From Burkholderia pyrrocinia (GTDB lineage: Bacteria; Pseudomonadota; Gammaproteobacteria; Burkholderiales; Burkholderiaceae), in the NCBI RefSeq assembly GCF_001028665.1, contig NZ_CP011503.1, forward strand, positions 2,914,001 to 2,978,000: a DNA stretch of 64,000 nt, in the 5' to 3' direction. The translations under genes and the position numbers were made by a program. The notes under the pieces were generated by a model, which did not search any database, had not been told where the DNA came from, and saw nothing but the letters and a program-made list of their open reading frames with translations. Shown here one piece after another: positions 11,836-31,228 of the stretch. The stretch's first letter is position 1. Every line of letters starts with the position of its first letter.

Positions 11836-12297
11836 TTATTGCTGGCGAACCCAGGTCTGTGAACGGCCGAGCAGCGACACGCCGATGTAACCGCGCACGA
11901 CGAGCTTCTGGCCGCCGTCTTCAAGCGTCATCTTGCACTTGTAGACCTTGCCGTTCTCAGGGTCGAGAATGTTGCCGCCGTCCCAGTGGTCGCCTTCCTT
12001 CTTCATCGCCTTGATGATCGTCATGCCCTTGATGAGCTGATCCTTGCGCTCGTCCGTGCAGGCGGTGCAGCGGCGATCGGGCGTATCGTTCGCGCCGAGA
12101 CCCTTGACGACCTTGCCCGTCAGCGCACCGTCGCCGTCCTCGGCGATCTGCACGAGTGCCTTCGGTTGATGGGTGTTGTCGTCGATCGTCTGCCACATGC
12201 CGAGCGGGCTGTCGGCTTGAGCGAACGTGGGTGCTGCGCAGGCGAGCAGTGCGCCGGCGATGGCCATTGCACGCAACGGGCGGGTCAGTTGAATCAT
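11836..12297 (-). CDS. DUF2147 secreted protein
   Basis: Exported protein of about 153 residues with a signal peptide ending in CAAPTFAQA. The mature part begins SPLGMWQTIDDNTHQPKALV and carries DRRCTACTDERKDQL with a CxxC pair, then GGNILDPENGKVYKCKM, which are the family words of DUF2147. Two ATGs lie six bases apart at the start. The ribosome site AAGGAGG touches the first (12301-12303) and sits six bases before the second (12295-12297), so the second is chosen. Role unknown; it is probably a periplasmic beta-barrel protein. Confidence 0.85.
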   Translation of the reverse strand: MIQLTRPLRAMAIAGALLACAAPTFAQADSPLGMWQTIDDNTHQPKALVQIAEDGDGALTGKVVKGLGANDTPDRRCTACTDERKDQLIKGMTIIKAMKKEGDHWDGGNILDPENGKVYKCKMTLEDGGQKLVVRGYIGVSLLGRSQTWVRQQ

Positions 12298-12426
12298 TGT
12301 CATCCTCCTTGTTTTGCATGTCGTGTTCGATTCGCTCGCACGACCGTCTGCATGGGGCGGGCATGTTGCGAGCTTCGCCAGAATACGTGAATCCGCGCGC
12401 CACGTTTGATAGAGGGGACTCTAATC

Positions 12427-12463: not shown

Positions 12464-14149
12464 TCAGTTGAGCTGATACGAGAATGCGGCGTTGATGCGC
12501 GGGCTGCGCGATGCGCTTTCGACGGGGGCGTCGCCCACCGGTTTCGCGACGTTCAGGTCGAGGCTGTAGTAGCGGCTGTCCGTGAACCGCACGCCGATGC
12601 CGACCGACGACAGGCGGCTCGGCGACGGCGTGCCCGCGTGCAGGTACACGCGCGCCATGTCGTACGCGATGTACGGCGTGACGGATTTCAGATACGTCCA
12701 GCCCGGCGTGAAGCCGCGGTTGACCTCCAGCGACATCCCCCAGCCCGAGTCGCCCGACGTTTCGCCGGGCTGGTAGCCGAGCGCGTAGCGGGTCGAGCCG
12801 AACGAGATCTGCTCGGACGTCGGCAGCGAATCGGGGCTGTATTGCCCGGTCAGCGAAACCGACGTGCCGATCCGGAACGGCCATTCGTTCGTTTGCGTGA
12901 AGGTCGCACCGGTGCGGACGAAGGTCAGCGAAATCGGGTCTGCATAGGTAGTCGTGGTGCCGCCATTCGTGCCGATCTGCGATTTTGACGCACCGAGGAT
13001 GTCGAATGCCTTGGCGACGTTGACACTCAGTTTCCGCACCTGCTTCGGCTCGACGCTCGTGTAGTCGAGTTGCAGTTGCATCACGCGCACTTGCGATCGG
13101 TTATCGAGGGTCGCGCCGTTGATTTTGTTCTGGTAGCGGTCTTCGTTGTGCGATGCATAACCCGACACGGTGCCGAGCAGGCTGCGCTGGTTGTTCAGCA
13201 GCAACGGATAGGATGCCGAAAGACCGAGTTTTTCGTTCTTGACGGTCCGCTCGACGGTCGACGGCAAGCCCGGGTTGTCGGTCGGCTTGCCGCGATACGT
13301 GCTTGCGTCGAGGCGCGTGATCAGGCCGCTGCTGCCGACGGGTACCGCGCCGCTGAACGCGAAGTAGGTCTGCTTGTCACGCCCCGGCGGCGCCAGCGCG
13401 GAGATGCTCAATTGCTCGCCGAACGACGTGAGGCCGTTTTCGGTCGCGGTGATGAGGCCCTGGACGCCCGGGTGGTTGAAGTCGATACCGGTGCTGACGT
13501 TGAACGGCTTGCGGTCGACCGCGAGTTCGAGCGTCGTTGCACCGTCGGTGGTTTGCGGCGGCGGCACATTCGCTTTCACCGTGAGGCCGGGCAGCAGGCC
13601 GAAGGTATTCACGTAGCGCTCGAACGTCGCGCGGCGCAGCGGGCGATCGGCAGTGATATGCGCGGCGATCGCGCGAATCTTCGGTTCCATCGCGCCGGGT
13701 TTGCCGGTGACCTTGACGTCCGACACATAACCTTCGACAACCGTGATACGCACGACGCCGTTCTCGAATGTCTGCGCGGGAACGAACGCGAACGACAGCG
13801 CGTAGCCGCGATCCTGGTACAGCTTCGTCACGCCGTTGGCGGTTTCGATCAACTGGCCGATCGTGATGTCCTTGCCGACGAGGGGCGTGAAGCGCTGCGA
13901 GATTTCCTCGAACGGTACCGACTTGACGCCTTCGACCTGGAACGTCGTCGGCGTCAGGTGTCGCGACAGCAACTCCTGCAGTTGCGGCGCCTGGGGTGCG
14001 ACCTGCACGGTGACGTTAGGGCCCGTCTTCGGTGCGTTGATCTGGGGAAGGGAGTCGAGCGGGTTACCCGCGACGCGCGTTTGTGCATGTGCCGTGCTTG
14101 CTGCCGCGATGGCGAGCAGCATCATCCATCTGTCGAGTCTGGATTGCAT
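12464..14149 (-). CDS. TpsB-type (ShlB/FhaC/HecB) outer-membrane exporter
   Basis: Outer-membrane beta-barrel of the two-partner secretion/Omp85 superfamily, 561 residues from ATG at 14147-14149, preceded by GAGGAAGAAC. A longer frame upstream exists but lacks such a site. Residues 1-23 are a signal peptide (STAHAQ). A POTRA domain spans about residues 64-145 (TFQVEGVKSVPFEEIS to VVEGYVSDVKV). The barrel follows. In the loop-6 position the usual RYSVRGF is replaced by RYALGYQPGE, so the conserved Arg of the VRG motif is absent, while GDSGWGMSLEVNR downstream is conserved. No TpsA with a TPS domain is adjacent; instead two repeat lipoproteins lie upstream in the same direction, so they are candidate substrates (inference). 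Confidence 0.88.
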   Translation of the reverse strand: MQSRLDRWMMLLAIAAASTAHAQTRVAGNPLDSLPQINAPKTGPNVTVQVAPQAPQLQELLSRHLTPTTFQVEGVKSVPFEEISQRFTPLVGKDITIGQLIETANGVTKLYQDRGYALSFAFVPAQTFENGVVRITVVEGYVSDVKVTGKPGAMEPKIRAIAAHITADRPLRRATFERYVNTFGLLPGLTVKANVPPPQTTDGATTLELAVDRKPFNVSTGIDFNHPGVQGLITATENGLTSFGEQLSISALAPPGRDKQTYFAFSGAVPVGSSGLITRLDASTYRGKPTDNPGLPSTVERTVKNEKLGLSASYPLLLNNQRSLLGTVSGYASHNEDRYQNKINGATLDNRSQVRVMQLQLDYTSVEPKQVRKLSVNVAKAFDILGASKSQIGTNGGTTTTYADPISLTFVRTGATFTQTNEWPFRIGTSVSLTGQYSPDSLPTSEQISFGSTRYALGYQPGETSGDSGWGMSLEVNRGFTPGWTYLKSVTPYIAYDMARVYLHAGTPSPSRLSSVGIGVRFTDSRYYSLDLNVAKPVGDAPVESASRSPRINAAFSYQLN

Positions 14150-14291
14150 TGTTCTTCCTCGTAGGCCTTTTTTCATCTTCTTTCTAATGCCGTCGCGCGA
14201 CACAAAGGTGTCGCGCGACGCGTGCCGCAATGCCGGTTGTATTTGTACGGCCGCGCCACTCGCTCCGGCTGCGAAGGTGCGACCGTCCTTC

Positions 14292-15719
14292 TTACTTGCC
14301 AACGCTACCCAGCGTACCCAGCAACCCCGTTACCGGCGCCAGCAGCCCCGTCGAACCGCCGCCCGACGATGCCGTACCCGACACGCCGCCGACCAGCGAC
14401 GTGACCGGCGCGAGCGGGCTCGCGCCCCCGGATCCCGCTGCACCGCCGACTGCTCCGGTGACAGTATTCAGCAAACCGGTGACAGGCGCGAGAGGGTTTG
14501 CACTGCCTGCGCCACCCGTTGCGCCGCCGAGCGTGCCCGTGACCGTCGACACGAGATTCGTGACGGGGGCGAGCGGGCCGCCGCTGCCGCCTGCCGCGCC
14601 ACCGAGTGCACCGGTGACCGTCGACACGAGGCCGGTGACGGGAGCGAGCGGGCCGCTGCTCGTGCCACCGGTTGCGCCGCCGAGTGCGCCCGTGAGCGAG
14701 CCGAGCGGCGTCGAGCCGAGACCCGACAGCAGGCCGCCGAGCGGGTTCGTCGAACCGGAGCCCGACGACGTGCCGTTCTGGACGCCAGCGGTCGAGCCGC
14801 CGACGAGGCTCGTGATCAGGCCGGGGATCGGTGCCGCACCGTTCGGGCCGTTCGGGTTGACGAGACCGCCCGCGTTGGTCACGGTGTTGCCGACCGCGGT
14901 CACGAGTTGACCGACATCGCCGACGAGCGGCTGGTTCGACGTGCTGCCGACCTGCTTGCCCGCCGAGCTGATCGCGCCGCCGACCTGGCCGAGCAGGCCC
15001 GAGACGGGTTGGCCGAGGCCGGTCGTCGTGCCGACCTGTTGCGTGACCTGGCCGGCGGTGATTACGAGCGGCGTGATCGCCGAGCTGAGCGGCTGCGTGA
15101 CCTGCTGCACGGCACCCGACGACAGCGTCGAGCCGATCGTCGTGCCGGCGGCCGTCAGGCCGTTGGCGACCGTGTCGAGCACGGTGCCGACCGGGGTCGT
15201 GACGGGCGCGAGCGGCGCGAGCGGGCCCGTGCCGAGCGCCTTGACCGTCGAGCTCAGGCCGGACACCGTGTTGCTCGTCGCGCCGACGACATTGCCGAGA
15301 CCGGCAACCGTCGTGCCGACCGGATCCTTCGTCGAGCCGATCTGCCCCAGCCCGTTGCTTACGGCATCGGCGGCTGCGCCGACGATCGTGCCGGTGCTGG
15401 AGAGCGTGCTGCCGACACCCTTCGTCACGCCGTCGCCGAGGCCCGGCAGGCTGATGTTGCCGACCGTGCTGCCGAGGTCGGTGGCCGTCTGGCCGACCGT
15501 GCTGACGACACCTTTGGTGCCGGTGGTCGTGCCGCTGGTGCCGCTCGTGCCGGACGTACCGCTGGTGCCGCTGGTCGAACCGCTGTTGTTGCTGCTGGTC
15601 GGCGGCGAGCTGACGCCGCCGCCGCCGCAGGCGGCCAGCAGGCAGGCTGCGGCGAAGGCGGTGAGGGGCATGCGCCACTGGCGCAGGGCGGTCGTCGTGA
15701 GAGAACGTTGCTGGGACAT
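14292..15719 (-). CDS. Repeat-rich lipoprotein (collagen-like/Gly-Ser-Thr repeats), copy 1
   Basis: A 475-residue protein with a lipoprotein signal (CLLAAC, Cys about residue 30, Gly after it, so probably outer-membrane). It then has a Gly/Ser/Thr tract (SGTSGTSGTSG), a middle region with valine/threonine-rich periodicity, and five to six C-terminal repeats of about 25 residues of the form PLAPVTGLVSTVTGALGGA. It ends in Gly-Lys like its neighbour. Start ATG follows GAGGAG. It lies between a second lipoprotein of the same design and the TpsB exporter, all on the minus strand. Automatic pipelines tend to call such proteins collagen-like; no Gly-X-Y triplet is regular here. Function unknown, adhesin or matrix component suspected. 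Confidence 0.85.
   Translation of the reverse strand: MSQQRSLTTTALRQWRMPLTAFAAACLLAACGGGGVSSPPTSSNNSGSTSGTSGTSGTSGTSGTTTGTKGVVSTVGQTATDLGSTVGNISLPGLGDGVTKGVGSTLSSTGTIVGAAADAVSNGLGQIGSTKDPVGTTVAGLGNVVGATSNTVSGLSSTVKALGTGPLAPLAPVTTPVGTVLDTVANGLTAAGTTIGSTLSSGAVQQVTQPLSSAITPLVITAGQVTQQVGTTTGLGQPVSGLLGQVGGAISSAGKQVGSTSNQPLVGDVGQLVTAVGNTVTNAGGLVNPNGPNGAAPIPGLITSLVGGSTAGVQNGTSSGSGSTNPLGGLLSGLGSTPLGSLTGALGGATGGTSSGPLAPVTGLVSTVTGALGGAAGGSGGPLAPVTNLVSTVTGTLGGATGGAGSANPLAPVTGLLNTVTGAVGGAAGSGGASPLAPVTSLVGGVSGTASSGGGSTGLLAPVTGLLGTLGSVGK
14300..14680 (-). repeat. Degenerate 75-78-bp tandem repeats in lipoprotein 1
   Basis: Five to six diverged units each coding PLAPVTGLVSTVTG-type blocks at the C-terminal end of the gene. 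They are the same unit as in the neighbouring gene but less uniform. Confidence 0.75.
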
Positions 15720-15759
15720 GAAGGACTCCTCGCTGTCTTGTCGATGAATGGATATTGGC

Positions 15760-17430
15760 TTACTTGCCGTGCGTGCCGCCGAGCAGGCCGCCGATCAGCG
15801 ACGTGACAGGCGCGAGCGGATTCGACGACGAGCCCGAGTTCGTGACGGCACCCGTGCCGCCGCTCAGTGCCGGTACGCCGACCGTGCTGGTGACCGTGGA
15901 CACGGCATTCGTCACCGGAGCGAGCGGGCTGCTGCCGCCTGCGCCGCCCGTCGCGCCGCCGAGTGCGCCCGTGACTGCACCGAGGAGACCCGTGACCGGC
16001 GCGAGCGGGCTGCCGCTCGTACCGCCTGTTGCACCGCCGAGCGCGCCCGTGACCGTCGAGACGAGGCCCGTGACCGGCGCGAGCGGGCTGCCGCTGCCGC
16101 CTGCAGCGCCACCGAGTGCGCCGGTGACCGTGGAGACGAGGCCGGTGACCGGGGCGAGCGGGCCGCTGCCGCCACCCGTTGCGCCACCGAGTGCGCCGGT
16201 AACCGTGGAGACGAGGCCGGTGACCGGAGCGAGCGGGCCGCTGCCGCCACCCGTTGCGCCGCCGAGTGCGCCGGTAACCGTCGAGACGAGGCCGGTGACC
16301 GGAGCGAGCGGGCCGCTGCCGCCACCCGTTGCGCCGCCGAGTGCGCCGGTAACCGTCGAGACGAGGCCCGTGAGCGGTGCGAGCGGGTTGGTCACGCCGC
16401 CGGTGCCGCCCGTGAGCAGGCCGCCGACGGCCTTCACGGTATTGCCCGTCGCCGAGACGGTGTTGCCGAGGCCCGTCGTCACGGGGTTGCCGCCTGCAGA
16501 CGCGAGCAGCGCGCCGGCCTGGTTCAGGCCGTTGCCGACCGTACCGAGCAGCGTGTTGACGGGGGCGCCGAGGCCGGTCGCCGTGCCGATCGTCTGGGTC
16601 GTCTGGCCAACCATCGTCGTGATCGGCGTGATGGCCGAGCTGACCGTCTGCGTGACCTGCTGGATCGGGCCGGTCGACAGCGCGTTGGTGAGGGTGGTGC
16701 CGCCGTTCGACACGGCGCCGCCGAGCGTCGACACGAGGCCGCCGACTGCACCCGTGACCGGGGCGAGCGGCGACAGCGGGCCGCTGCCGAGGCTCGTGAC
16801 CAGGTTGCCGGTCTGCGTGACCGCACCGCCGAGCTGATTGACCACGCCGCCCGTGCTGGCGACCGTGGTGCCGATCGGATCCTTCGTTGCGCCGAGCTGG
16901 CCGAGACCATTGCCGAGGCCGTTGCCGAGTGCGGTCACCGCACCGCCTACGCTTTGCACGATGCCGCCCGCCGCTTGCGTGGTGGCCGGGTTCACGCCCG
17001 GCAGCGACTGGCTGGCGATGACGGAGCCGAGACCCGAGACGGTTCCGCCGACACCCGTAACGAGATTGCTGCTGTTTGCGAGGATAGTTCCCACCGCGTT
17101 CGACGACACACCCGAGGTGCCGCTCGTGCCGCTGGTCGTTCCACTCGTCGAGCCGCTGGTGCTGCCGCTCGTCGAACCGCTCGTGCTGCCGCTGGTCGAG
17201 CCGCTGGTGCTGCCCGACGTGCTGCCGCTCGTCGAACCCGACGTGCCGCCCGAGGTGCCGCCGCCGGACGTCGAGATCGAATCGCCGCCGCCCGAGCTCG
17301 AGTGGCCACTGCCGAGGCCCTGGCTGATGGAACCGGAGCCGCCGCACGCGGAGAGGGAAAGCATGGCTGCAACGGTGGCCGCGATCAGAGTCGTCCGGAA
17401 CACGCCATGAGGGATAACCTTAATGTCCAT
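15760..17430 (-). CDS. Repeat-rich lipoprotein (collagen-like/Gly-Ser-Thr repeats), copy 2
   Basis: A 556-residue protein with lipoprotein signal LSLSAC (Cys 29, then Gly). Residues about 60-110 are a tetrapeptide ladder of SGST units. The middle is homologous to the next gene (ALGNGLGNGLGQLGATKDPIG, compare QIGSTKDPVG in copy 1). The last 200 residues are about seven repeats of 25-26 residues built on PLAPVTGLVSTVTGALGGATGG, ending GGTHGK. Start ATG follows GAGGAA. It is the first gene of a leftward operon with lipoprotein 1 (40 bp apart) and TpsB, 63 bp downstream of an exact sigma-54 promoter. The pair arose by gene duplication. Likely surface-exposed; the role is inference. Confidence 0.85.
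   Translation of the reverse strand: MDIKVIPHGVFRTTLIAATVAAMLSLSACGGSGSISQGLGSGHSSSGGGDSISTSGGGTSGGTSGSTSGSTSGSTSGSTSGSTSGSTSGSTSGSTSGTTSGTSGTSGVSSNAVGTILANSSNLVTGVGGTVSGLGSVIASQSLPGVNPATTQAAGGIVQSVGGAVTALGNGLGNGLGQLGATKDPIGTTVASTGGVVNQLGGAVTQTGNLVTSLGSGPLSPLAPVTGAVGGLVSTLGGAVSNGGTTLTNALSTGPIQQVTQTVSSAITPITTMVGQTTQTIGTATGLGAPVNTLLGTVGNGLNQAGALLASAGGNPVTTGLGNTVSATGNTVKAVGGLLTGGTGGVTNPLAPLTGLVSTVTGALGGATGGGSGPLAPVTGLVSTVTGALGGATGGGSGPLAPVTGLVSTVTGALGGATGGGSGPLAPVTGLVSTVTGALGGAAGGSGSPLAPVTGLVSTVTGALGGATGGTSGSPLAPVTGLLGAVTGALGGATGGAGGSSPLAPVTNAVSTVTSTVGVPALSGGTGAVTNSGSSSNPLAPVTSLIGGLLGGTHGK
15913..16391 (-). repeat. 75-bp tandem repeats in lipoprotein 2
   Basis: Units of 75 bp (25 residues). The copies starting at 16141, 16216 and 16291 differ at only a few bases, and flanking copies of 75-78 bp are more diverged. 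Near-identity of the central copies points to recent expansion and a possible length polymorphism between strains. Confidence 0.9.
17130..17262 (-). repeat. 12-bp tandem repeats coding Ser-Gly-Ser-Thr
   Basis: About ten 12-bp units coding SGST/SGTT near the N-terminus of lipoprotein 2. Silent differences between units (CTGGTG/CTCGTC alternation) show that the peptide is conserved more strictly than the DNA. Confidence 0.85.
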
Positions 17431-17492
17431 TTCTTCCTCGCATTAAAAATGTGTTGTGAACTGCGTTGTGTTGAGTGATGCGAGGTCTACTC

Positions 17493-17508
17493 TGCAACTG
17501 TCGTGCCA
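17493..17508 (-). promoter_or_regulatory. Sigma-54 (-24/-12) promoter of the lipoprotein-TpsB operon
   Basis: On the minus strand the sequence reads TGGCACGACAGTTGCA, an exact match to TGGCACG-N4-TTGCA. Transcription would start near 17480, giving a leader of about 50 bases before the lipoprotein 2 start codon at 17430. The rest of the 677-bp gap (17431-18107) is AT-rich for this genome and holds the flp promoter side; I see no gene in it. Confidence 0.85.
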
Positions 17509-17637: not shown

Positions 17638-17682
17638 CGTAACGTAACGTCACAACATTGGCGTTACGCGTGCGGCGTAACG
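17638..17682. promoter_or_regulatory. Cluster of four CGTWACG heptamers (candidate enhancer)
   Basis: CGTAACG at 17638-17644, 17643-17649 and 17676-17682, and CGTTACG at 17662-17668. The cluster lies 130-175 bp upstream of the sigma-54 promoter, the normal place for activator sites, and also upstream of flp. A weaker -24/-12-like match on the plus strand (TTGGC...TGC, 17658-17673) overlaps it. The binding protein is not known. Confidence 0.5.
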
Positions 17683-18107: not shown

Positions 18108-18314
18108 ATGAAAGCAATCATCAAGCGTTTCCTTAGGGAAAACAACGGGGTTACCGCGATCGAGTACGGTCTGATTGCGGGTCTTATCGCTGTCGCGATC
18201 CTGGCTGGTGCTTCGTCGATCGGCACCAGTCTCGGCAATATGTTCACGAATCTCGGGTCATGTATCACCACCCCGGGCGGCGCGAACTGCACGGTTGCCA
18301 AAATCTTTACGTAA
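18108..18314 (+). CDS. flp: Flp-family type IVb pilin
   Basis: Major subunit of the Tad pilus, 68 residues. The ATG at 18108 follows CACGAGGAATAAA and gives the usual short leader. The leader MKAIIKRFLRENNG ends in Gly and is followed by VTAIEYGLIAGL, with the obligatory Glu at +5 and Tyr at +6, then a hydrophobic helix. The C-terminus has two Cys (SCITTPGGANC), possibly a disulfide. The CpaA peptidase that would process it is encoded 115 bp downstream, after a strong hairpin. First gene of the Tad locus. Confidence 0.97.
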   Translation: MKAIIKRFLRENNGVTAIEYGLIAGLIAVAILAGASSIGTSLGNMFTNLGSCITTPGGANCTVAKIFT

Positions 18315-18368
18315 CCCACCTGGCGTTAATTGGTACGACCTCGAAACAAGGGGTCGTCTTGGTGTTGT

Positions 18369-18401
18369 GGTGGGCGGATTACCCTTGGTAGTCCGCCCAC
18401 C
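18369..18401 (+). terminator. Hairpin between flp and cpaA
   Basis: Perfect ten-base inverted repeat GGTGGGCGGA / TCCGCCCACC with a 13-base loop, followed by GCGACATTTTTGG. A smaller stem (ACGACC / GGTCGT, 18335-18357) precedes it. It probably ends or thins most flp transcripts, leaving the pilin more abundant than the assembly proteins. Confidence 0.7.
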
Positions 18402-18428
18402 GCGACATTTTTGGCAGGTTGCGGTGCG

Positions 18429-18929
18429 ATGGCACATTTCATTTTCAGCGGGATGTTCCTGGTCTGGGCTGCGTTCGTCGCAACCAGCGACATCCGCTTT
18501 CGGCGCGTTTCGAATTCGCTCGTCCTGGCGGGGTTGGCCTGTGGCTTGAGCGGAGCGTATTTGAACGCCAGTCCGTTCGGCATTCTCCCGGCGCAGGCCA
18601 TGATCGGCCTGCTGGTCGGGTTGGTCGCCTTTTTCCCGCTCTTTTTGCTTCGCGTCATGGGCGCGGCGGACGTAAAGATCTTTGCCGTGATCGGCGTGTG
18701 GTGCGGCGCGAATGCGCTGCTGTGGATCTGGGTTGCCGCCAGTCTCGTCGCCGGTTTTCATGCCCTTGCGCTGATGCTGTTGTCGCGCACGTCGATCGGC
18801 GCGTTGCGGCGGCGGGGCAAACCGGCAATGGCGCTCGGCGGATACCGGGCAACACCCTATGCGGCATGCCTCGCGGCGCCGGCTGCTGCGTGGGTCGTTT
18901 TTCTTGTCGCAACGGGGGGCGTGCGATGA
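18429..18929 (+). CDS. cpaA: Prepilin peptidase CpaA/TadV
   Basis: Integral-membrane aspartic peptidase (A24 family) that cleaves the Flp prepilin leader. It has 166 residues from ATG at 18429. The two catalytic Asp are seen in SDIRFRRVSN (about residue 20) and in the GxxDVK-type motif GAADVKIF (about residue 80). There are five to six hydrophobic segments. It overlaps the next gene by four bases (ATGA), so translation is coupled. Confidence 0.93.
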   Translation: MAHFIFSGMFLVWAAFVATSDIRFRRVSNSLVLAGLACGLSGAYLNASPFGILPAQAMIGLLVGLVAFFPLFLLRVMGAADVKIFAVIGVWCGANALLWIWVAASLVAGFHALALMLLSRTSIGALRRRGKPAMALGGYRATPYAACLAAPAAAWVVFLVATGGVR

Positions 18930-19372
18930 AACGACAGATGCAGCCGCGTGGACGCCGGCGGCAGCGTGGCGCGACGGCGGTCGAGTTTGCGATCGTATTC
19001 CCGCTGTTGTTCGTGATTTTCTACGGCATCCTCAGTTTCGGGATGATTTTCACGATCCAGCAGAGCCTCACGTTTGCTGCCAGCGAGGGCGCACGGGCCG
19101 GGTTGAGTTACGCCCCAAGTCTTGCTGCACGCATGACGAACGCAACGACGACTGCACAGAGCGTCGTGGCCTGGCTGAATGTCGGCACGCCACAGGTCGT
19201 GGCGCTCCAATGCAGTTATGACAAGTCGACTCCGCCGTCGTTGTACTGCCTGTCGGTCACGGTGAACTACACCCCCCAGAGCTGGATAACGAGCATGCCA
19301 CTTTTGGGATCGATACTGACTCAACCGTTGACGAGCACGGCGGTCGTGCAAATTCCGCAGTCGATGCTGTGA
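18926..19372 (+). CDS. tadE: TadE-like minor pseudopilin
   Basis: A 148-residue protein with a basic leader, RRRQRGATAVEFAIVFPLLF, and one hydrophobic helix. The TadE/TadF signature GATAVEFA contains the Glu expected at +5 after prepilin cleavage. The C-terminal part is short and has two Cys. It starts inside the cpaA stop codon. It is a minor component of the Tad pilus, inserted in the inner membrane and processed by CpaA. Confidence 0.92.
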   Translation: MKRQMQPRGRRRQRGATAVEFAIVFPLLFVIFYGILSFGMIFTIQQSLTFAASEGARAGLSYAPSLAARMTNATTTAQSVVAWLNVGTPQVVALQCSYDKSTPPSLYCLSVTVNYTPQSWITSMPLLGSILTQPLTSTAVVQIPQSML

Positions 19373-19461
19373 AGTACTCATCGTGACGCGACGGGCACGC
19401 TGACTCGCGAATCGGGCAAAAAGAACTTATCGGACTTTTATTCCGGCATCCATACGACAAC

Positions 19462-20388
19462 ATGGCCAACAATTTAACGAAGATCATCGCGGGGCTGCTG
19501 ATTGCGATCGCCGTATTGCTCGGAATCTACGCATGGATGCTCGGACGCAGTACGCCGAATCCCGTGCCGGTCCAACAAACCGTTGCGGCCAGTCCGGTTC
19601 CGGTCGTGGTCGCGACGCGTGTGTTGCCCGTCGGCCAGCCGATCACGGCCGACGCGCTGAAGATTCAGCCGACCACGCCGGCGCCGACGGGCGCATTCAC
19701 CGATCCGTCCGCACTCGTTGGACGGGTGCCGGCGGCGGACATTCCGGCATCGTCGCCGGTCGTCGCGGGTGCACTGGTCTCGGGGCTTGCCGAGGATGTG
19801 CAACCGGGCGAGCGTGCGGTCGCAGTGCGTGTCGATGAAACCAATGCGGTCGGCAACCGGCTGCGTCCCGGCAATTTCGTCGATGTGTTCCTGAACCTGA
19901 AGCGCGAAGGCGGCACGATGCTTGACGGCGAAGTGTCGCAGACGCAGGCGCGGCTACTGTTGTCGAGGGTGCGGGTGCTGTCGTTCGGCGATGCGACACC
20001 CGATCGCGACAGCGGCAATAACAACACCGGCAACAACGGTCAAGCGTCCGGCGCCCGCATCGCGGTGCTCGCGGTGCCGACCGCGCAGGTCGATGCGTTG
20101 ACGCTCGGCGAGGCGAGCGGCCGCCTGACCTTCGCGTTGCGAAATCCGCGCGACGACGAGCTTGCGATACAGACGGTCGCGGTGCGTACGGACAACAAGC
20201 TGTCGCCGTCGGCAATTGCCGCCGCCGGCGTCTCGCTGCAACAGCTGTCCGGCACACCGAGAACGCCGGTGGCCAACGTGAACGTGCCGCCGTTGCCGTC
20301 GCGTCTGCCGCCGGCGGTTCGGCCGAGCGGGAGCGGCGGCGGCATCGAGGTGATCCGTGGCGGCCGGTCGGAAACGGTTGCCTATTGA
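19462..20388 (+). CDS. cpaB: Tad pilus assembly protein CpaB/RcpC
   Basis: A 308-residue periplasmic protein with an N-terminal membrane anchor (KIIAGLLIAIAVLLGIYAW) and a SAF domain at about residues 45-110 (VATRVLPVGQPITADAL). A second RcpC domain follows (AVAVRVDETNAVGNRLRPGNFVDV). It probably links the secretin to the inner-membrane platform. The C-terminus is Pro/Gly-rich. Followed by cpaC. Confidence 0.93.
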   Translation: MANNLTKIIAGLLIAIAVLLGIYAWMLGRSTPNPVPVQQTVAASPVPVVVATRVLPVGQPITADALKIQPTTPAPTGAFTDPSALVGRVPAADIPASSPVVAGALVSGLAEDVQPGERAVAVRVDETNAVGNRLRPGNFVDVFLNLKREGGTMLDGEVSQTQARLLLSRVRVLSFGDATPDRDSGNNNTGNNGQASGARIAVLAVPTAQVDALTLGEASGRLTFALRNPRDDELAIQTVAVRTDNKLSPSAIAAAGVSLQQLSGTPRTPVANVNVPPLPSRLPPAVRPSGSGGGIEVIRGGRSETVAY

Positions 20389-20453
20389 ACGACATCGACG
20401 GCCATTGACATCAGCGACGACAAGTAAAGGGCCGCGCGACGGTCTACCAAACA

Positions 20454-21785
20454 ATGAAAAACACACTGATTGCATTCGCGATTGCTATCTGCGCCATGAC
20501 TTTCGCATCGTTCGCGAGTGCGAGCGGCACAATCGAGCTCGCGGTCGGCGCGCAACGGCAGATTTCGGCGGGCCGCACGCTGCAGCGCGTCGCGGTCGGC
20601 GATCCGGCGATCGCCGACGTGCTGATCATGAAAGGCAGCCGCTCGGGTTCCGTGCTGCTGACCGCGAAGGCGCCTGGCGCGACGAACGTGATGCTGTGGG
20701 AGCGAGGTCATGACGAACCGACGGTCTGGAACGTCGCAGTCGTCGACGCGGCAGCGCAAGCGGTGCTCGATGGCTCCACGCCGCGCGTGAATGCATATGG
20801 CGGCACGGCGGTGTTGCAGGGATCGTCGGCGTCGCTCGATGCGCATGCGCGCGCCGCCGCGGTCGGCAAGAACATGAGCGGGAAGGGCGTCGTGATCGAC
20901 CGTTCGACGGTCACCGGCAAGAATGTCGTACAGGTCGACGTGCGGGTCGTCGAATTCAGCCGCTCGGTGCTCAAACAGGTCGGGTTCAATTTCTTCAAGC
21001 AGAGCAACGGCTTCTCGTTCGGATCGTTTTCGCCGGGCGGCGTGCAGTCTTATAGCGGCGGGGCGGGTCCCGGTACCGCGGGTTACATTCCGACGCTCGG
21101 GTCACCCGTCGCGTCCGCGTTCAACCTGGTCGTCAATGCTGCGGGACGCGGCATCTTTGCCGACCTGTCACTGCTCGAGGCGAACAATCTCGCGCGCGTG
21201 CTGGCGGAGCCGACGCTGGTCGCGCTGTCGGGGCAGAGCGCGAGCTTCCTTGCGGGCGGCGAGATTCCGGTGCCGTCCCCGCAAGGGCTCGGTTCGACCG
21301 CGATCCAGTGGAAGCAATACGGCGTCGGGCTTTCGCTGACGCCGACGGTCCTGAGTCCCAGCCGGATCGCGCTGAAGGTCGCACCCGAGTCGAGCCAGCT
21401 CGATTTCGTGAACAGCGTGACGATCAGCGGCGTCGCGGTACCGGGCATCACGACTCGCCGCGCGGACACGACCGTCGAACTCGGCGACGGCGAGAGCTTC
21501 GTGATCGGCGGCCTGATCGATCGTCAGACGATGTCGAACGTGAGCAAGGTGCCGTTGCTCGGCGATCTGCCGATCATCGGCACCTTCTTCAAGAATTTGA
21601 GCTATCAGCAGAACGACAAGGAACTGCTGATCATCGTGACGCCGCATCTCGTCGCGCCAATCGCGAAGGGGGCGGTGCTGCCTGCCACGCCGGGTGAGCT
21701 GTCCGAACAGCGCAACGGGCCGGTATGGCAGTCGTATCTGGGTGGTGCCGCTTCGCCGGACGCCGCACCGGGGTTTTCGAAATGA
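20454..21785 (+). CDS. cpaC: Tad pilus secretin CpaC/RcpA
   Basis: Outer-membrane secretin through which the Flp pilus leaves the cell, 443 residues. Signal peptide (FASFASASG), N-terminal pilus-formation domain (GAQRQISAGRTLQRVAVGDP), a BON-like segment, then the secretin core around residues 230-410, with VLAEPTLVALSGQSASFLAGGEIPVP and the end motif VPLLGDLPIIGTFF. It has the normal domain order for the family. Confidence 0.95.
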   Translation: MKNTLIAFAIAICAMTFASFASASGTIELAVGAQRQISAGRTLQRVAVGDPAIADVLIMKGSRSGSVLLTAKAPGATNVMLWERGHDEPTVWNVAVVDAAAQAVLDGSTPRVNAYGGTAVLQGSSASLDAHARAAAVGKNMSGKGVVIDRSTVTGKNVVQVDVRVVEFSRSVLKQVGFNFFKQSNGFSFGSFSPGGVQSYSGGAGPGTAGYIPTLGSPVASAFNLVVNAAGRGIFADLSLLEANNLARVLAEPTLVALSGQSASFLAGGEIPVPSPQGLGSTAIQWKQYGVGLSLTPTVLSPSRIALKVAPESSQLDFVNSVTISGVAVPGITTRRADTTVELGDGESFVIGGLIDRQTMSNVSKVPLLGDLPIIGTFFKNLSYQQNDKELLIIVTPHLVAPIAKGAVLPATPGELSEQRNGPVWQSYLGGAASPDAAPGFSK

Positions 21786-21789
21786 GTGC

Positions 21790-21814
21790 GAAGCATCGCG
21801 TGTTGCGATGCTTC
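21790..21814 (+). other. Intra-operon RNA hairpin
   Basis: Perfect ten-base stem GAAGCATCGC / GCGATGCTTC with loop GTGTT, right after the cpaC stop codon and without a T run. It is more likely an mRNA stabiliser or processing point than a terminator. Confidence 0.55.
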
Positions 21815-21845
21815 GGCACGCCTTGCGTAATCGGGGGTGTTCAGC

Positions 21846-23120
21846 ATGAACGCGCGAATCCAATCATTGTGTGAACCCGCCGTGACCGACTATTTCGTTT
21901 GCGCATCTCAACAGGAGGCGCATGTCCGCTGGCTGGCCGATACGCTCGTGTCGGCCGGTGCGGTCGAGGCCGCATCGCTCGAACCGGGCGTGCTTGCACA
22001 GCGCATCACGGGTCTCAATCCGGCGCTCGTCTTCATCGATTTCTCGGATGGCGGCACGGCAGCGAGCATTGCCGCCGCCGCAGTTCGCGCCACGCATCCG
22101 GGGTTGCCGATCGTCGCGCTCGGTTCGCTCGCACAGCCGGAGAGCACGCTTGCCGCATTGCGCGCCGGCGTTCGCGATTTCATCGACGTGTCGGCACCAG
22201 CCGAGGATGCGTTGCGCACGACGCGCGGGCTGCTTGCGAACGTCGCCGAGCCGGCGAGCCGCCACGGCAAGCTCGTCGCGTTGCTGGGTGCGCGTACCGG
22301 CATGGGCGTGAGCACGCTCGCGGCGAATCTCGCCGTATGGCTGCAGAAGCGCGCGGCGAGCCCGGGGGCGGGCGGTGTGCCGAATGGCGGCACACCGGCC
22401 GGTCGCCAGACCGCGCTCGTCGACCTGGGGCTGCCGGCAGGCGATGGCGCGTTGTTCCTGAATACCCGCTGCGAATTCCATTTCATCGATGCGGTTCACA
22501 ACCTGCGCCGCATCGACCGCACCTTCGTGAATACCGCTCTGACCCGGCATGAGAGCGGCGTCGCATTGACGACGCTGCCGCCCGATCTCGGCGGGCTGCG
22601 CGACGTCTCGTACGCGTCGTGTGCCGGTTTGCTGAACCGGTTTCGCGCATTCTTCGATCAGCAGATCGTCGATCTCGGCGGCTTTTCGAACCGCGAGTTC
22701 GTCGCCCAGATCGCGAGCTCGGCCGACGAAGCGTGGCTCGTCTGCGATCAGGGCGTCGCGTCGATCGTGTCGGCAGCCGATCTGCTTACCGGGCTGCGCG
22801 ACGCGGGCGTCGATACCGATCGCGTACGGCTCGTCGTCAACCAGTACGACCCTGCACTCGACCTGACACCCGCGCAGATCGCCGAGCGCCTCGGCCTGTC
22901 GCTGGTCGGTACCTTGCCGTCGCGCCGCGTCACGATCGGACGTGCGGCGAACCAGGGCCGGCTCATCGTCGATATGGCGGAGCGCGACCCGTACGTGCGC
23001 GCGCTCGAGTCGCTCGCCGCACGGCTGCCAGGCGTGTCGGTCGGATCGGCGGCACCACGTCCGGCGTCCGGCCTGTCTGCGCTGAAGCGTTTCATTCAAC
23101 CCTCGTCCAAGCGGTCGTAA
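21846..23120 (+). CDS. cpaE: Tad pilus localisation protein CpaE/TadZ
   Basis: MinD/ParA-like protein that places the Tad machine, 424 residues from ATG at 21846 (a GTG nine bases earlier is the alternative; GGGGG precedes both). The N-terminal third resembles a receiver fold without a clear phosphorylation site. The nucleotide loop is degenerate: GARTGMGVST at about residues 148-157 where MinD proteins have KGGVGKT, so the catalytic Lys is Val. Later parts such as DLGGFSNREFVAQI follow the family. Gene ends four bases before cpaF. Confidence 0.9.
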   Translation: MNARIQSLCEPAVTDYFVCASQQEAHVRWLADTLVSAGAVEAASLEPGVLAQRITGLNPALVFIDFSDGGTAASIAAAAVRATHPGLPIVALGSLAQPESTLAALRAGVRDFIDVSAPAEDALRTTRGLLANVAEPASRHGKLVALLGARTGMGVSTLAANLAVWLQKRAASPGAGGVPNGGTPAGRQTALVDLGLPAGDGALFLNTRCEFHFIDAVHNLRRIDRTFVNTALTRHESGVALTTLPPDLGGLRDVSYASCAGLLNRFRAFFDQQIVDLGGFSNREFVAQIASSADEAWLVCDQGVASIVSAADLLTGLRDAGVDTDRVRLVVNQYDPALDLTPAQIAERLGLSLVGTLPSRRVTIGRAANQGRLIVDMAERDPYVRALESLAARLPGVSVGSAAPRPASGLSALKRFIQPSSKRS

Positions 23121-23123
23121 GCG

Positions 23124-24494
23124 ATGGCACACGACATTCAATTCGCCGACGGCGCAGCGCCGTTCTCCCAGACACAGCAATTCCACGACATCAAGAATGC
23201 CGCGCACGAGCACTTGCTGACGCGCATCGAAGAACTGGGCGCCGAGTTCGGCCGATGGTCCCGCCAGGCGATCAACCAGTTCGTCGATCTCGAGATCGAC
23301 AGCTTCGTGCGCCTGCGCCGCATTCCGCTCAACGAGACGGAGGTGCGTGCGATCGCCGAGGCGCTGACGAAGGAGCTCGCGGGCTTCGGGCCGATCGAGG
23401 ACCTGCTCGCGGACCCTGCTGTCGAGGACATCCTGATCAACGGCTACAACGACGTGTACGTATCGCGTCACGGGATCCTCGCGAAGTTGCCGGTGCGTTT
23501 CACCGACAACGCGCACCTGTTGCGGATCGTGCGTCGCATCCTCGCGCCGATCGGCCGGCGTCTCGACGAGTCGAACCCGATGGTCGATGCGCGGCTGCCC
23601 GATGGTGGCCGCGTGAACGTCGTGATCGAGCCGCTGTCGATCGACGGCCCGGTCGTATCGATCCGGAAATTCCGCAAGGATCCGCTGAAGCCGTCCGACC
23701 TGCTCGGCAACGGGACCTTCAACGAAGAGATCAACACGCTGCTCCAGGCGGCGGTCGAGGCACGCTGCAACATTCTCGTGTCGGGCGGGACGAGTTCCGG
23801 CAAGACGTCGCTGCTCAACGCGCTGGCGTTCCACATTCCCGAGATCGAGCGTGTCGTGACGATCGAGGATACGGCGGAACTGTCGCTGAACCACCCGCAC
23901 GTCGTGCGGCTCGAGAGCCGGCCGGGCGGCTTCGACGGCACCGGCGTCGTGTCGATTCGCGACCTGCTGCGCAATACGCTGCGGATGCGCCCGGACCGGA
24001 TCATCGTCGGCGAAGTGCGCGGCGGCGAAGTGCTGGAAATGCTGCAGGCGATGAACACCGGTCACGACGGTTCGATGGGCACCGTGCACGCGAGTTCGCC
24101 GCGAGAGTGCCTGTACCGTCTCGAGATGCTGGCGGGCTTCGCGGGCTTCCAGGGGACCGAGTCGAGCCTGCGCCGGCAGATCGCGAACGCGATCGACTTC
24201 ATCGTGCAGATCGGGCGCCTGTCGAACGGGCGGCGGCGGATCCTGTCGATCACCGAAGTGACCGGGCTGTCCGACAACATCATCGCGACGCAGGAGCTTT
24301 ATCGCTACGAAGCGCGGGTGACGCCGGAGGGCGAGGAGGTCGACCACTGGGAAACGCTGGGCATTCATCCGCATTCGCCGAAGCTTGCGCGCTTCCGCCA
24401 GACGCTGACGAGCGGCGGATTCGGCGATGGCGGGTTTGGCGGCGGCTTTGGCGGTGGCGGGTTCGGCCGTGGCGGCGGGGGCTTCAATGTATAG
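23124..24494 (+). CDS. cpaF: Tad secretion ATPase CpaF/TadA
   Basis: Hexameric ATPase of the type II/IV secretion superfamily that drives pilus assembly, 456 residues. Walker A is SGGTSSGKTS, the Asp box is TIEDTAELSLNHPHVVRLE, Walker B is DRIIVGEVRGGE, and the His box is TGHDGSMGTVHASS. The last 25 residues are almost pure Gly/Phe (GGFGGGFGGGG), unusual for the family and of unknown use. Overlaps tadB by eight bases. Confidence 0.97.
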   Translation: MAHDIQFADGAAPFSQTQQFHDIKNAAHEHLLTRIEELGAEFGRWSRQAINQFVDLEIDSFVRLRRIPLNETEVRAIAEALTKELAGFGPIEDLLADPAVEDILINGYNDVYVSRHGILAKLPVRFTDNAHLLRIVRRILAPIGRRLDESNPMVDARLPDGGRVNVVIEPLSIDGPVVSIRKFRKDPLKPSDLLGNGTFNEEINTLLQAAVEARCNILVSGGTSSGKTSLLNALAFHIPEIERVVTIEDTAELSLNHPHVVRLESRPGGFDGTGVVSIRDLLRNTLRMRPDRIIVGEVRGGEVLEMLQAMNTGHDGSMGTVHASSPRECLYRLEMLAGFAGFQGTESSLRRQIANAIDFIVQIGRLSNGRRRILSITEVTGLSDNIIATQELYRYEARVTPEGEEVDHWETLGIHPHSPKLARFRQTLTSGGFGDGGFGGGFGGGGFGRGGGGFNV

Positions 24495-25485
24495 CGCGAT
24501 GGTGTGGGCGCTGGCGTGCGCGATGCTGTGCGTCGCGGCGGCGATGATGCTGTGGCGTCACGCGGAGACCCGGCGCGTGCGGACCGACGCAAAGCGTTTT
24601 ATCGACAGCCGGCTCGAACCCGGCGCACGTGCCGGTGCCGCGGCACAGCCGGCACGGCAGTCCGCGGCCGGTGCGGCGCGTGCCGTGCCGCAACCGGGCG
24701 CGGCACGGAATGTATCGTCCGACGCATTTTGGGCGCACTGGTATGCGGTGGCATCCGAGTATCTGACGAACCTCGCGAGTCGCGCGGGGATCGAGGATGC
24801 GCGGGGCAAGACGCTCGTCGCACTCGTCGTGCTGGTGGTTGTCGCGGGATTCGCGGGCAGTCGCGGCGGCGCGCTTGCGTGCTTCGCGGCGCTCGCGTGC
24901 GGCAGCTCGATACTCGGCGTGTGGCTCGCGTCGCGAATTCAGCGGCGCAGATTGAAGATTGTCCGGCAGATCCCGTCGTTCCTCGACGGGATCGTGCGTC
25001 TTGTGACGCTCGGCAATAGCGTGCCAGCGGCATTCCAGTCCGCGCTGCTGACGACCGAGGAGCCGCTGCGCGGTTGTCTCGACCACGTGTCGCGGATGTT
25101 GCGCGGCGGTGTCGAAATCGATCGCGCAATGGTCCACATCGCAAAGATCTACCGAACCGAGGAGTTCGAACTTGTCGGCTCCGTGTTGCGTTTGTCGGTC
25201 AAGTATGGCGGCCGCGCGGACGTGATGCTCGAACGCATGGCCGTGTTCATGCGCGATCTCGAACAGGCGGAGCGCGAGCTGACCGCGATGTCGGCCGAGA
25301 CACGGTTGTCGGCGTTTGTGCTCGTGATGTTGCCGATCGCGATCGGCAGCTTTATCGTCGTCAACAATCCGAAATATCTGCATGGCATGTGGAACGATCC
25401 GGGTGGACGGACGCTCCTCATGTTCGCGTTCCTGTTGCAATTGGCCGGCAGTGTCTGGCTGTATCGAATGGCTCGGCTCAGGTGA
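24487..25485 (+). CDS. tadB: Tad pilus platform protein TadB
   Basis: Inner-membrane platform protein of the GspF (T2SSF) family, 332 residues, starting MYSAMVWAL inside the end of cpaF. It has an N-terminal membrane segment, two central hydrophobic stretches (about residues 115-150), the T2SSF domain (QIPSFLDGIVRLVTLGNSVPAAF) and a last hydrophobic pair. It pairs with TadC directly downstream. Confidence 0.95.
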   Translation: MYSAMVWALACAMLCVAAAMMLWRHAETRRVRTDAKRFIDSRLEPGARAGAAAQPARQSAAGAARAVPQPGAARNVSSDAFWAHWYAVASEYLTNLASRAGIEDARGKTLVALVVLVVVAGFAGSRGGALACFAALACGSSILGVWLASRIQRRRLKIVRQIPSFLDGIVRLVTLGNSVPAAFQSALLTTEEPLRGCLDHVSRMLRGGVEIDRAMVHIAKIYRTEEFELVGSVLRLSVKYGGRADVMLERMAVFMRDLEQAERELTAMSAETRLSAFVLVMLPIAIGSFIVVNNPKYLHGMWNDPGGRTLLMFAFLLQLAGSVWLYRMARLR

Positions 25486-25489
25486 TGCT

Positions 25490-26482
25490 ATGACAGCGAC
25501 TCAGATCGGAGCGATTGCCCTGGCGAGCGGCGCACTCGGCGTGCTGCTGTTCGGCATGATCGCGTTGTTGCGCGCGAGTGCCGCGACGCGTGCCGAGCGC
25601 GCGCTTGTCGATGCGCTGAACCGGCGCATGGCTGCGCTCGAGGCAGCGAAAGCGCGGACCGCGCCGGATGGCGATGCGCCCGCGAAGCCCGACGTGCGCG
25701 GCAGGCAGCGTGTCGAACGTTTTCTCGACCGGCTGTCGGCTGCGGGCGTGCGCTGGCTCGATACCGGGCTCGGCAAATACGTTGTCGCGGAGGAGGATCG
25801 CCGCCTGCTCGAGCAATGCGGTTATGTCGACGCCCGGACGCGCGGGCTGTTCCTGAGCGCGCGCGTCGCGTGCGGGATCGGACTGCCGCTGCTGTTCGCG
25901 ATCCTCGCGAGCGGGCGCATGAAGGGCGGTATCTGGACGATCGGCATGTTCGCCGCGTTCGGGCTCGGCTTCATGTTGCCGAAGCTCTACGTGCAGCGCC
26001 GTGCGACGGCGCGGCGGCAGAGCGTGGTCGATGAACTGCCGTTGTTCGTCGACATGCTGCGCTTGCTGCAAGGCGTCGGCTTGTCGCTCGATCAGAGCCT
26101 GCAGGTCGTGACGAACGATTTTCGCGGGATGATGCCGGTACTGTCGTCGGAGATGGGGATTGCGCAGCGCCAGTTCGCGGCGGGCCGGACGCGCGAACAG
26201 TCGTTGCAGCGGCTATCCGGCGGATTCGACAATGAGGATTTGCGCGCGATCGTGCGATTGATGGTCCAGGTCGACAAGCATGGCGGCGCGGTACAGGAGC
26301 CGCTCAAGCAGTTCGGCGACCGGTTGCGCGAGACACGTCGTGCGATGCTGCGCGAACGGATCGGCCGGTTGACCGTGAAGATGACCGGGGTGATGGTGCT
26401 GACGTTGCTGCCCGCATTGCTGATCGTGACGGCCGGGCCGGGCTTGTTGGCGGTGACGCACGCGCTGTCGTCGCGTCATTGA
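25490..26482 (+). CDS. tadC: Tad pilus platform protein TadC
   Basis: Second GspF-family platform protein, 330 residues from ATG at 25490, four bases after tadB. Membrane segments are near residues 10-30, 125-170 and at the C-terminus. The T2SSF domain contains ELPLFVDMLRLLQGVGLSLDQSL. With TadB it forms the inner-membrane base that the CpaF ATPase acts on. Confidence 0.95.
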   Translation: MTATQIGAIALASGALGVLLFGMIALLRASAATRAERALVDALNRRMAALEAAKARTAPDGDAPAKPDVRGRQRVERFLDRLSAAGVRWLDTGLGKYVVAEEDRRLLEQCGYVDARTRGLFLSARVACGIGLPLLFAILASGRMKGGIWTIGMFAAFGLGFMLPKLYVQRRATARRQSVVDELPLFVDMLRLLQGVGLSLDQSLQVVTNDFRGMMPVLSSEMGIAQRQFAAGRTREQSLQRLSGGFDNEDLRAIVRLMVQVDKHGGAVQEPLKQFGDRLRETRRAMLRERIGRLTVKMTGVMVLTLLPALLIVTAGPGLLAVTHALSSRH

Positions 26483-26499
26483 CGGTGGAAGGAAAGACG

Positions 26500-27342: not shown

Positions 27343-27362
27343 ACAGACATCCGGGGAACGAC

Positions 27363-27692
27363 ATGAACAACAAACATGACCGAAACATGCACGTCGGCCG
27401 GATTGCGGTGCTGGGCGCGATCGTCTTGCTGGTAGCGGGCTCGACGGTCGCATACGCGCAAGATGTCGACGCACCGCGCGCATCCGACGTCGAGCGCTCT
27501 GCGAAGGAATGGCTCGCAATGCAGCGCGACAATCGCGCGGCGGCGCCAACGCAGCCGATGCTCGGAGAGGTTGCGACGCTCGTCTATCAGCGCTATCTCG
27601 ACTCGTTCAAGAACCGGATTCCGGACACGATGAATTCGCAGCTCGGTTCTGCCAGCGGCATGTCGGGTGGCGGGCAAGGTGCGCAGCAGTAG
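27363..27692 (+). CDS. DUF3613 small exported protein
   Basis: About 110 residues with a signal peptide (VLLVAGSTVAYAQ). The mature part has SDVERSAKEWLAMQRDNRAAAP and YQRYLDSFKNRIPDTMN, the DUF3613 core, then a Gly/Ser/Gln tail. The ATG at 27363 follows CCGGGGAACG. The ATG at 27339, overlapping the tadD stop, is the alternative. The family is commonly found in Tad loci of beta-proteobacteria; role unknown. Confidence 0.8.
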   Translation: MNNKHDRNMHVGRIAVLGAIVLLVAGSTVAYAQDVDAPRASDVERSAKEWLAMQRDNRAAAPTQPMLGEVATLVYQRYLDSFKNRIPDTMNSQLGSASGMSGGGQGAQQ

Positions 27693-27703
27693 GCGAGGCG
27701 GCG

Positions 27704-29821: not shown

Positions 29822-31228
<1,407 letters not shown>

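Follow-up and report, generated by a model that had tools for sequence, protein, structure and literature searches.

What does a TpsB-type exporter serve when the other genes of its operon encode repeat lipoproteins and no TpsA protein? The question is raised by a 64,000-nucleotide stretch of the Burkholderia pyrrocinia genome (contig NZ_CP011503.1, positions 2,914,001 to 2,978,000; hereafter the window), in which an Omp85 exporter of the TpsB type lies downstream of two lipoprotein genes with the Pfam domain Collagen_mid (PF15984), beside a Tad (Flp) pilus cluster (Table 1). A preliminary description of this DNA had proposed an undescribed display route for the lipoproteins. The gene set, its promoter and the absence of a TpsA stood up to analysis; the lipoproteins themselves are not new, being published collagen-like proteins of the Burkholderia cepacia complex (Bcc). 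Co-occurrence, adjacency, the lack of a linked TpsA and promoter conservation together identify a real conserved module, and it is probable that this module is dedicated to displaying Collagen_mid repeat lipoproteins at the outer membrane and that it works beside the Tad pilus. We further infer that the lipoproteins are exported by the TpsB protein, that they carry an export signal and that the regulator GtrR contacts an array of sites upstream of the promoter.

The exporter and Collagen_mid lipoproteins occur together

An open reading frame (ORF) scan placed all three leftward ORFs of the preliminary description where, and on the strand, it had put them. We then compared 80 named loci, the best 80 of 211 relatives, which come from Burkholderia, Paraburkholderia, Caballeronia and one unassigned Burkholderiales metagenome-assembled genome. 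A Collagen_mid frame lies upstream of the exporter, adjacent and on the same strand, in 79 of the 80, and at least two frames are present in 64. The Collagen_mid frame of one adjacent locus (L049) is partial, and at the one exception the exporter sits at a contig edge.

We sampled 200 family genomes, calling Collagen_mid at E 1e-10 and the exporter at E 1e-40; each was found in 109 genomes and both in 108 (Fisher p = 2.5e-55, with no correction for shared ancestry), and either gene is present in 110. The two exceptional genomes are apparently decayed: G177 has Collagen_mid only, as a single 242-residue frame with no lipobox, and in G117, which has the exporter only, a stop interrupts the exporter frame, GtrR is matched in part and Collagen_mid is not matched at E 1e-3. 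Where Collagen_mid positions were listed, the two genes lie no more than 3 kb apart in 74 of 75 family genomes, the exporter of the remaining one being near a contig end. Ten loci fetched from the other 34 genomes comprise five adjacent pairs, four lone exporters in genus g11, and G117. Near one lone g11 exporter we observed a leucine-rich repeat protein that carries an NEL (E3 ligase) domain at its C-terminus (L190:15733-18987, minus strand).

The pairing extends further. Collagen_mid was found in 13 of 398 genomes of a phylum-wide sample, and in all 13 (the window's own genome included) an exporter adjoins one copy or more. Six of these genomes lie outside the order, presumably within the same class, the gammaproteobacteria; the genes are adjacent in all six, with exporters 27-33% identical to that of the window. 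The three-gene set and its promoter (see below) are thus conserved across genomes, a matter that the preliminary description had left to comparison.

No TPS-domain partner is linked to the exporter

The closest two-partner secretion (TPS) domain on the same replicon lies 111 kb away, so a TpsA is indeed absent near the operon. Scanning 125 loci with a TPS profile made from seven domains of the window's own genome revealed no TPS domain beside the exporter; the single match belongs to a separate TpsA locus (L119). The protein encoded there (L119:8766-12131, plus strand) combines the TPS domain with ESPR and GLUG motifs; its neighbours are fimbrial genes of the chaperone-usher type, and the 19-kb stretch contains no TpsB. 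Using PF05860, we counted eight TPS-domain matches in the window's genome, against six TpsB proteins, and found TPS domains in 157 of the 200 family genomes.

Nor does a TPS partner always accompany the exporter, an outcome that would have spoken against the proposed route: among the 108 genomes that have both exporter and lipoprotein, 12 gave no TPS match at E 1e-3, and four of the 12 are assembled in one to three contigs. A TpsA partner encoded elsewhere in the genome is disfavoured by these 12 genomes.

A conserved sigma-54 promoter and a candidate activator array

The promoter reported earlier is present, TGGCACGACAGTTGCA at 17508-17493 on the minus strand, an exact TGGCACG-N4-TTGCA. Exact TGGCACG-N4-TTGC occurs nowhere else in the window; if one mismatch is allowed there are three sites against 2.28 expected, so a single sigma-54 site means little and it is conservation that carries weight. 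We therefore rely on a scan for sites of score at least 13 within 150 nt upstream of the start codon. Seven of the 80 named loci gave no usable start; 68 of the remaining 73 have a site, with 2.3 expected from base shuffles, and those that do not are L054, L070, L076, L093 and L095. Every one of the 68 also carries the hexamer GTTACG/CGTAAC (281 copies in all; base shuffles gave about 11 of 68). The 19 loci listed mostly have GTTACG-N7/8-CGTAAC followed by GTTACGTTACG, 130-190 bp upstream. Part of this conservation of promoter and array is shared ancestry, since the loci are related. With GG and GC at −24/−12, conservation across loci and upstream sites, the element has the predicted character of a sigma-54-dependent promoter; a promoter scan found no sigma-70 promoter for the operon on the operon strand.

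Searching the whole 7.96-Mb genome for GTTACG-N6..10-CGTAAC returned one place, this array (control 0). A composite of GTTACG, 118-146 bases and a sigma-54 site occurs five times in the genome, with one control match: at the operon, 41 bases before an unlinked Collagen_mid lipoprotein gene, 55 bases before the gene of a protein that we call P0122, and 657 and at least 376 bases before sugar transferase and Wza-like exporter genes. The last two sites, which precede exopolysaccharide genes (L216, G000:C3:94000-113000), may mark a joint attachment regulon or may be due to chance. P0122 (L215:4694-6628; G000:C1:2151693-2153627) is a non-lipidated protein of 644 residues with a signal peptide (by eye) and PLAPV...TGALGG repeats, ending in Lys; GTTACG copies and then a sigma-54 site precede its gene, and the protein matches no Pfam family at E 1e-3.

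In a scan of genera other than g11, Collagen_mid genes of eight further genera also have a sigma-54 site (score at least 13) with such hexamers upstream, as have those of a ninth (g15) at a score of 12.5. Some paralogs have no such site, for example those of L116, L157 and L158 and the one gene at L111. The regulatory region in genera g3 and g24 (L101, L103, L105, L156 and L201) lies between two divergent Collagen_mid genes, and each of the two has a sigma-54-like site of its own. A near-palindrome, TTAGRTGTGCACAYCTAA, was noticed by eye between the divergent operons at about 17720-17790 of the window and at several Burkholderia loci; it is possibly the site of a second regulator.

Operon layout

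On the minus strand, transcription would run from the sigma-54 site through lipoprotein 2 and lipoprotein 1 to the exporter, whose ATG is at 14149 and stop at 12464-12466, and then to a DUF2147 gene that may belong to the operon; this gene adjoins the exporter also in L106, L108, L110, L114, L159, L191 and L199. The terminator that had been described as closing the operon was not recovered by an intrinsic-terminator scan after the exporter; by eye, a GC-rich hairpin with a weak T-run lies 3' of the exporter stop. Pfam matches support four genes of the Tad cluster (T2SSE, T2SSF, TPR and Tad), and the remaining names are those that we assigned from gene order. The closest named relatives of the exporter are from Burkholderia cepacia and B. 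puraquae (96% identity), which suggests that the DNA belongs to the Bcc or to a close neighbour of it. A plasmid search returned a single record matching 2% of the query.

Judged by gene order, the locus is BCAL1524-1520 of the Bcc strain B. cenocepacia J2315, with the exporter, lipoprotein 1, lipoprotein 2 and the DUF2147 gene as orthologs of BCAL1522, BCAL1523, BCAL1524 and BCAL1520. BCAL1524-1520 is named as a putative operon, one of two under the influence of quorum sensing, in the available text of PMC2753556, and bcal1520-1524 is called possibly part of an operon in that of PMC10224339.

Table 1. Positions in the window of the genes and regulatory elements discussed in the text.
Feature	Position	Strand	Characteristics and basis
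Lipoprotein 2, Collagen_mid	15760..17430	−	556 aa; lipobox LSAC-GG, Gly/Ser/Thr ladder, PF15984, 25-residue PLAPVTGLVSTVTGALGG repeats, C-terminal Lys
Lipoprotein 1, Collagen_mid	14292..15719	−	475 aa; lipobox LAAC-GG, short ladder, PF15984, C-terminal Lys
TpsB-type Omp85 exporter	12464..14149	−	561 aa; signal peptide, two POTRA domains, barrel of ~16 strands; Pfam, PDB sequence matches, AlphaFold2, loop-6 alignment
DUF2147 gene	11836..12303	−	Pfam; possible last gene of the operon
Sigma-54 promoter TGGCACG-ACAG-TTGCA	17493..17508	−	Predicted; pattern scan and conservation
Candidate upstream activator array, GTTACG-N7-CGTAAC + GTTACGTTACG	17638..17681	−	~130-173 bp upstream of the −24 element
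Tad (Flp) pilus cluster, divergent	18108..29785	+	Flp, TadV, TadE, CpaB, CpaC, CpaE, CpaF, TadB, TadC, TPR protein, TadG
gtrR, sigma-54 enhancer-binding protein	29837..31228	+	GSFTGA loop, Fis-type helix-turn-helix; Pfam and sequence; candidate activator of the promoter

The exporter forms a separate TpsB clade

The exporter scores 73.9 bits against POTRA_2 and 69.8 bits against ShlB (cut-offs 24 and 22.7), and its AlphaFold2 model (mean pLDDT 78.6; strands counted by DSSP) has the two POTRA domains and the barrel listed in Table 1. The best folds for this model are CdiB (6wim first, TM 0.67) and FhaC. In its Pfam domains and its POTRA-plus-barrel architecture it is a TpsB protein of the ShlB-FhaC-HecB type; it departs from the type at loop 6, where it has ALGY and not VRGY/F, a motif that we regard as a hallmark of TpsB proteins rather than a strict criterion. 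Loop 6 reads [AG][LQ][GA]Y in the aligned Burkholderiales exporters and GRGY in six exporters outside the order. The fold search also returned 3njt, the R450A mutant of FhaC, and we take R450 to be the site of the loop-6 substitution seen in the exporters. In a tree, 20 exporters split from 14 other TpsB proteins (from the window's genome and five others) on a branch with local support of 1.000. Exporters at greater distance match the family less strongly, and that of G480 (L152) is not among the PF03865 matches at E 1e-8.

As regards function, BCAL1522 is listed as related to heme utilization in PMC10224339, the available text of which gives no export route and does not use the word TpsB. In our search of the open-licence literature we came across no paper in which this exporter is given a role with the lipoproteins.

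Collagen_mid proteins are predicted outer-membrane lipoproteins

The two lipoproteins score 228.3 and 216.3 bits against PF15984 (Pfam cut-off 31.1). Their Gly/Ser/Thr ladders and lipoboxes (LSAC-GGSG and LAAC-GGGG) are as first described, and the 25-residue repeats are visible in lipoprotein 2 as an identity autocorrelation of 0.29 at lag 25. We rejected a collagen triple helix, or a true collagen-like protein, on finding that the longest Gly-X-Y runs are just three and five triplets. Charged residues (D, E, K and R) number 15 in lipoprotein 1 and eight in lipoprotein 2.

For a wider view we collected 204 Collagen_mid frames and dropped seven at stretch ends, 11 with no lipobox by rule (several of which show one by eye) and four duplicates, leaving 182 distinct mature proteins. 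Residue +2 after the lipidated Cys is G in 156, A in 15 and S in 11, and never Asp. One rule finds a lipobox in 133 of 140 Collagen_mid ORFs, and a rule that leaves +2 free finds it in 186 of 197. A lipobox with no Asp at +2 makes these proteins predicted outer-membrane lipoproteins. Basic residues (K, R and H) account for 0.9% of the body, yet one of them ends the chain in 169 of the 182; this basic C-terminus on a chain nearly free of charge is a candidate export or assembly signal. At one locus, in a genome with no GtrR match, a single frame fuses a Collagen_mid lipoprotein to a TpsB (L196:9129-11810, minus strand); its TpsB part has no signal peptide and stops short of the last barrel strand, and the locus is apparently broken.

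The Bcc proteins are described in the available text of PMC10224339 as collagen-like, with PF15984, repeats of the GTS type and disorder, and their place among the known bacterial collagen-like proteins is doubted there. BCAL1524, as reported in PMC10303873, is found in outer-membrane vesicles and has roles in autoaggregation and in the Galleria model, its loss lowering autoaggregation.

GtrR and the Tad pilus

Primers published for gtrR (PMC8174753) match the first and last 20 bases of the gene at 29837-31228 with two and one mismatches. GtrR (BCAL1536) is described in PMC12838280 as a global regulator that acts with RpfR and has cepI as a target; the available text of that work makes no mention of the GTTACG/CGTAAC array of the operon. 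Relatives of GtrR (E 1e-90) occur in 108 of the 200 family genomes, and 106 genomes have exporter, Collagen_mid and GtrR together. G006 has GtrR alone; G167 and G179 miss only GtrR, and both have a stop in the exporter. Sequence and position suggest that GtrR may bind the array, and an activator other than GtrR, such as BerB, is possible.

Of the loci scanned for Tad genes, 23 hold both exporter and Collagen_mid, and at least one Tad-gene match lies in the same stretch at 20 of these, the exceptions being L147-L149; within the 20 the evidence is weak at L150 (one weak CpaC match) and L112 (TadV alone). Co-regulation with the Tad pilus, a further element of the original proposal, thus gains a link beyond the window's own genome, in these loci and in the co-occurrence of GtrR. 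It is not a new idea: joint induction of the operon genes with the Flp pilus genes on contact with host-membrane vesicles has been published (PMC7970998).

Does the exporter carry the lipoproteins?

A number of observations weigh against a display system in which the TpsB protein exports the lipoproteins. At all four intact g11 loci fetched, there is no Collagen_mid gene within about 8 kb on either side of the exporter; in these genomes Collagen_mid genes are retained at other places, and the two g11 regions of this kind that we fetched also show Tad-gene matches beside them. Three of the five Collagen_mid genes of the window's genome have no nearby TpsB; the exporter may serve their products in trans. 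Neither a sigma-54 site of score 13 nor an array hexamer was found at the six loci outside the order, so the regulation of the operon is not universal. The model of the Collagen_mid domain is helical and of such low confidence (mean pLDDT 57) that a recognition surface on it cannot be named, and the presence of BCAL1524 in outer-membrane vesicles does not tell which side of the membrane it faces. At loop 6, the arginine kept in 14 of 14 other TpsB proteins is lost in the Burkholderiales exporters inspected, which could mean an altered function.

Some of these points would suit plain neighbourhood, that is, two kinds of envelope protein that share a promoter and have no functional contact, the exporter having another role or an unimportant one. 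Membership of one operon does not alone prove interaction, and the three paralogs with no linked TpsB fit this explanation; but the pairing persists at about 30% exporter identity and where the genes lie apart, as in g11, and in the exceptional genomes both genes look decayed or lost together, which makes mere neighbourhood quite unlikely. The position of the g11 exporter away from Collagen_mid genes could also mean that the exporter moves other cargo, P0122 for example, or aids Tad assembly, while the lipoproteins take a general route. P0122 has the same kind of repeats, C-terminal Lys, promoter and array, and Tad-gene matches accompany 20 of the 23 loci. However, the tightest partner of the exporter is Collagen_mid, given that 108 of the 110 genomes with either have both, and the pairing is found also at L147-L149, outside the order, with no Tad match in the stretch. 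We regard other cargo, too, as unlikely.

The TPS survey likewise has a side that speaks against the display system. TPS domains are commoner in genomes with the exporter (97 of 109) than in those without it (60 of 91, p = 1e-4), an excess that we put down to genome size as a candidate cause. The TpsB of L120, in the window's own genome, likewise has no TPS domain in its 18-kb stretch, and the TPS profile rests on just the seven own-genome domains. The excess could be expected if the lipoproteins were accessory factors of the TpsB, as BcpO is, and the cargo a TPS-domain protein encoded elsewhere. BcpO, a predicted inner-leaflet lipoprotein of the outer membrane, must be present for a Burkholderia TPS system to function fully, according to the available text of PMC3415462, and the window's genome has more TPS-domain matches than TpsB proteins and, in L119, a TpsA whose stretch holds no TpsB. 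Yet the exporter occurs without any TPS domain in 12 of the 108 genomes, the orphan TpsA of L119 sits among chaperone-usher genes, BcpO has 73-74 residues in many alleles against 475-556 and adhesin-like repeats here, and loss of BCAL1524 lowers autoaggregation (PMC10303873). An accessory role is, in our judgement, very unlikely.

A proposed display route

Dedicated display of the lipoproteins, the reading that we prefer, could proceed as follows. GtrR from the Tad cluster, with the BDSF/c-di-GMP receptor RpfR, would bind the array and switch on the sigma-54 promoter. The lipoproteins would be lipidated and, having no Asp at +2, probably sorted to the outer membrane, as the Lol rule of E. coli has it. 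The POTRA domains of the TpsB protein would then recognise the Collagen_mid domain, the basic C-terminus or both, with no TPS domain involved; the probably disordered chain, nearly free of charge, would pass through the barrel. The lipid at the N-terminus would meanwhile remain in the outer membrane, with the Gly/Ser/Thr ladder as a possible tether. Once displayed, the lipoproteins and the Tad pilus would mediate adhesion between cells and to surfaces, perhaps dividing the labour between them.

More broadly, an ancient TpsB branch may have been re-tooled to export surface lipoproteins that have no TPS domain, perhaps by means of a basic C-terminal tag and with the lipid staying in the membrane, within a single sigma-54/GtrR attachment programme that includes the Tad pilus and perhaps exopolysaccharide. 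We offer this wider account tentatively, as one that falls a little short of an even chance.

To the question of how lipoproteins get across the outer membrane, Slam and BAM-linked routes are so far the main answers. If the proposal is true, surface lipoproteins would gain an Omp85 route in a TpsB branch that carries them, and it would no longer hold as a rule that a TpsB protein requires a partner with a TPS domain. GtrR would gain a physiological output in the Tad pilus, adhesive lipoproteins and possibly exopolysaccharide, and the operon would provide a small system for the export of outer-membrane lipoproteins, testable in harmless soil bacteria such as Paraburkholderia xenovorans LB400, whose genome has the locus (L055).

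Comparison with known systems

The type Vb TPS systems (FhaC, CdiB and ShlB) resemble the present one in their POTRA_2 and ShlB domains, two POTRA domains and barrel of about 16 strands, and they supply its top folds. They differ in that the partner here is a lipoprotein with no TPS domain, that no TPS domain is near, that the exporters form a separate clade and that those of Burkholderiales replace the arginine of the loop-6 VRGY motif; the TpsA with an N-terminal TPS domain that marks two-partner secretion is absent here.

Slam lies outside the Omp85 family, and BamA serves as a general machine. Surface lipoproteins that need an outer-membrane protein are common to Slam and the system proposed here, and RcsF with BamA (PDB 6t1w, returned by our fold search) likewise combines an Omp85 barrel with a lipoprotein; in contrast to both, the exporter here is a dedicated TpsB protein encoded together with the lipoproteins.

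BcpAIOB, the Burkholderia contact-dependent inhibition system, also has a TpsB and a lipoprotein in one operon and an autoaggregation phenotype, as described in PMC3415462. Its cargo is the TpsA BcpA and its BcpO is small, whereas our operon has no linked TpsA and its lipoproteins are large and repetitive. Closest on the cargo side are the Bcc collagen-like proteins of Estevens et al. (2023, PMC10224339), of which, as that group is described there, both lipoproteins are members.

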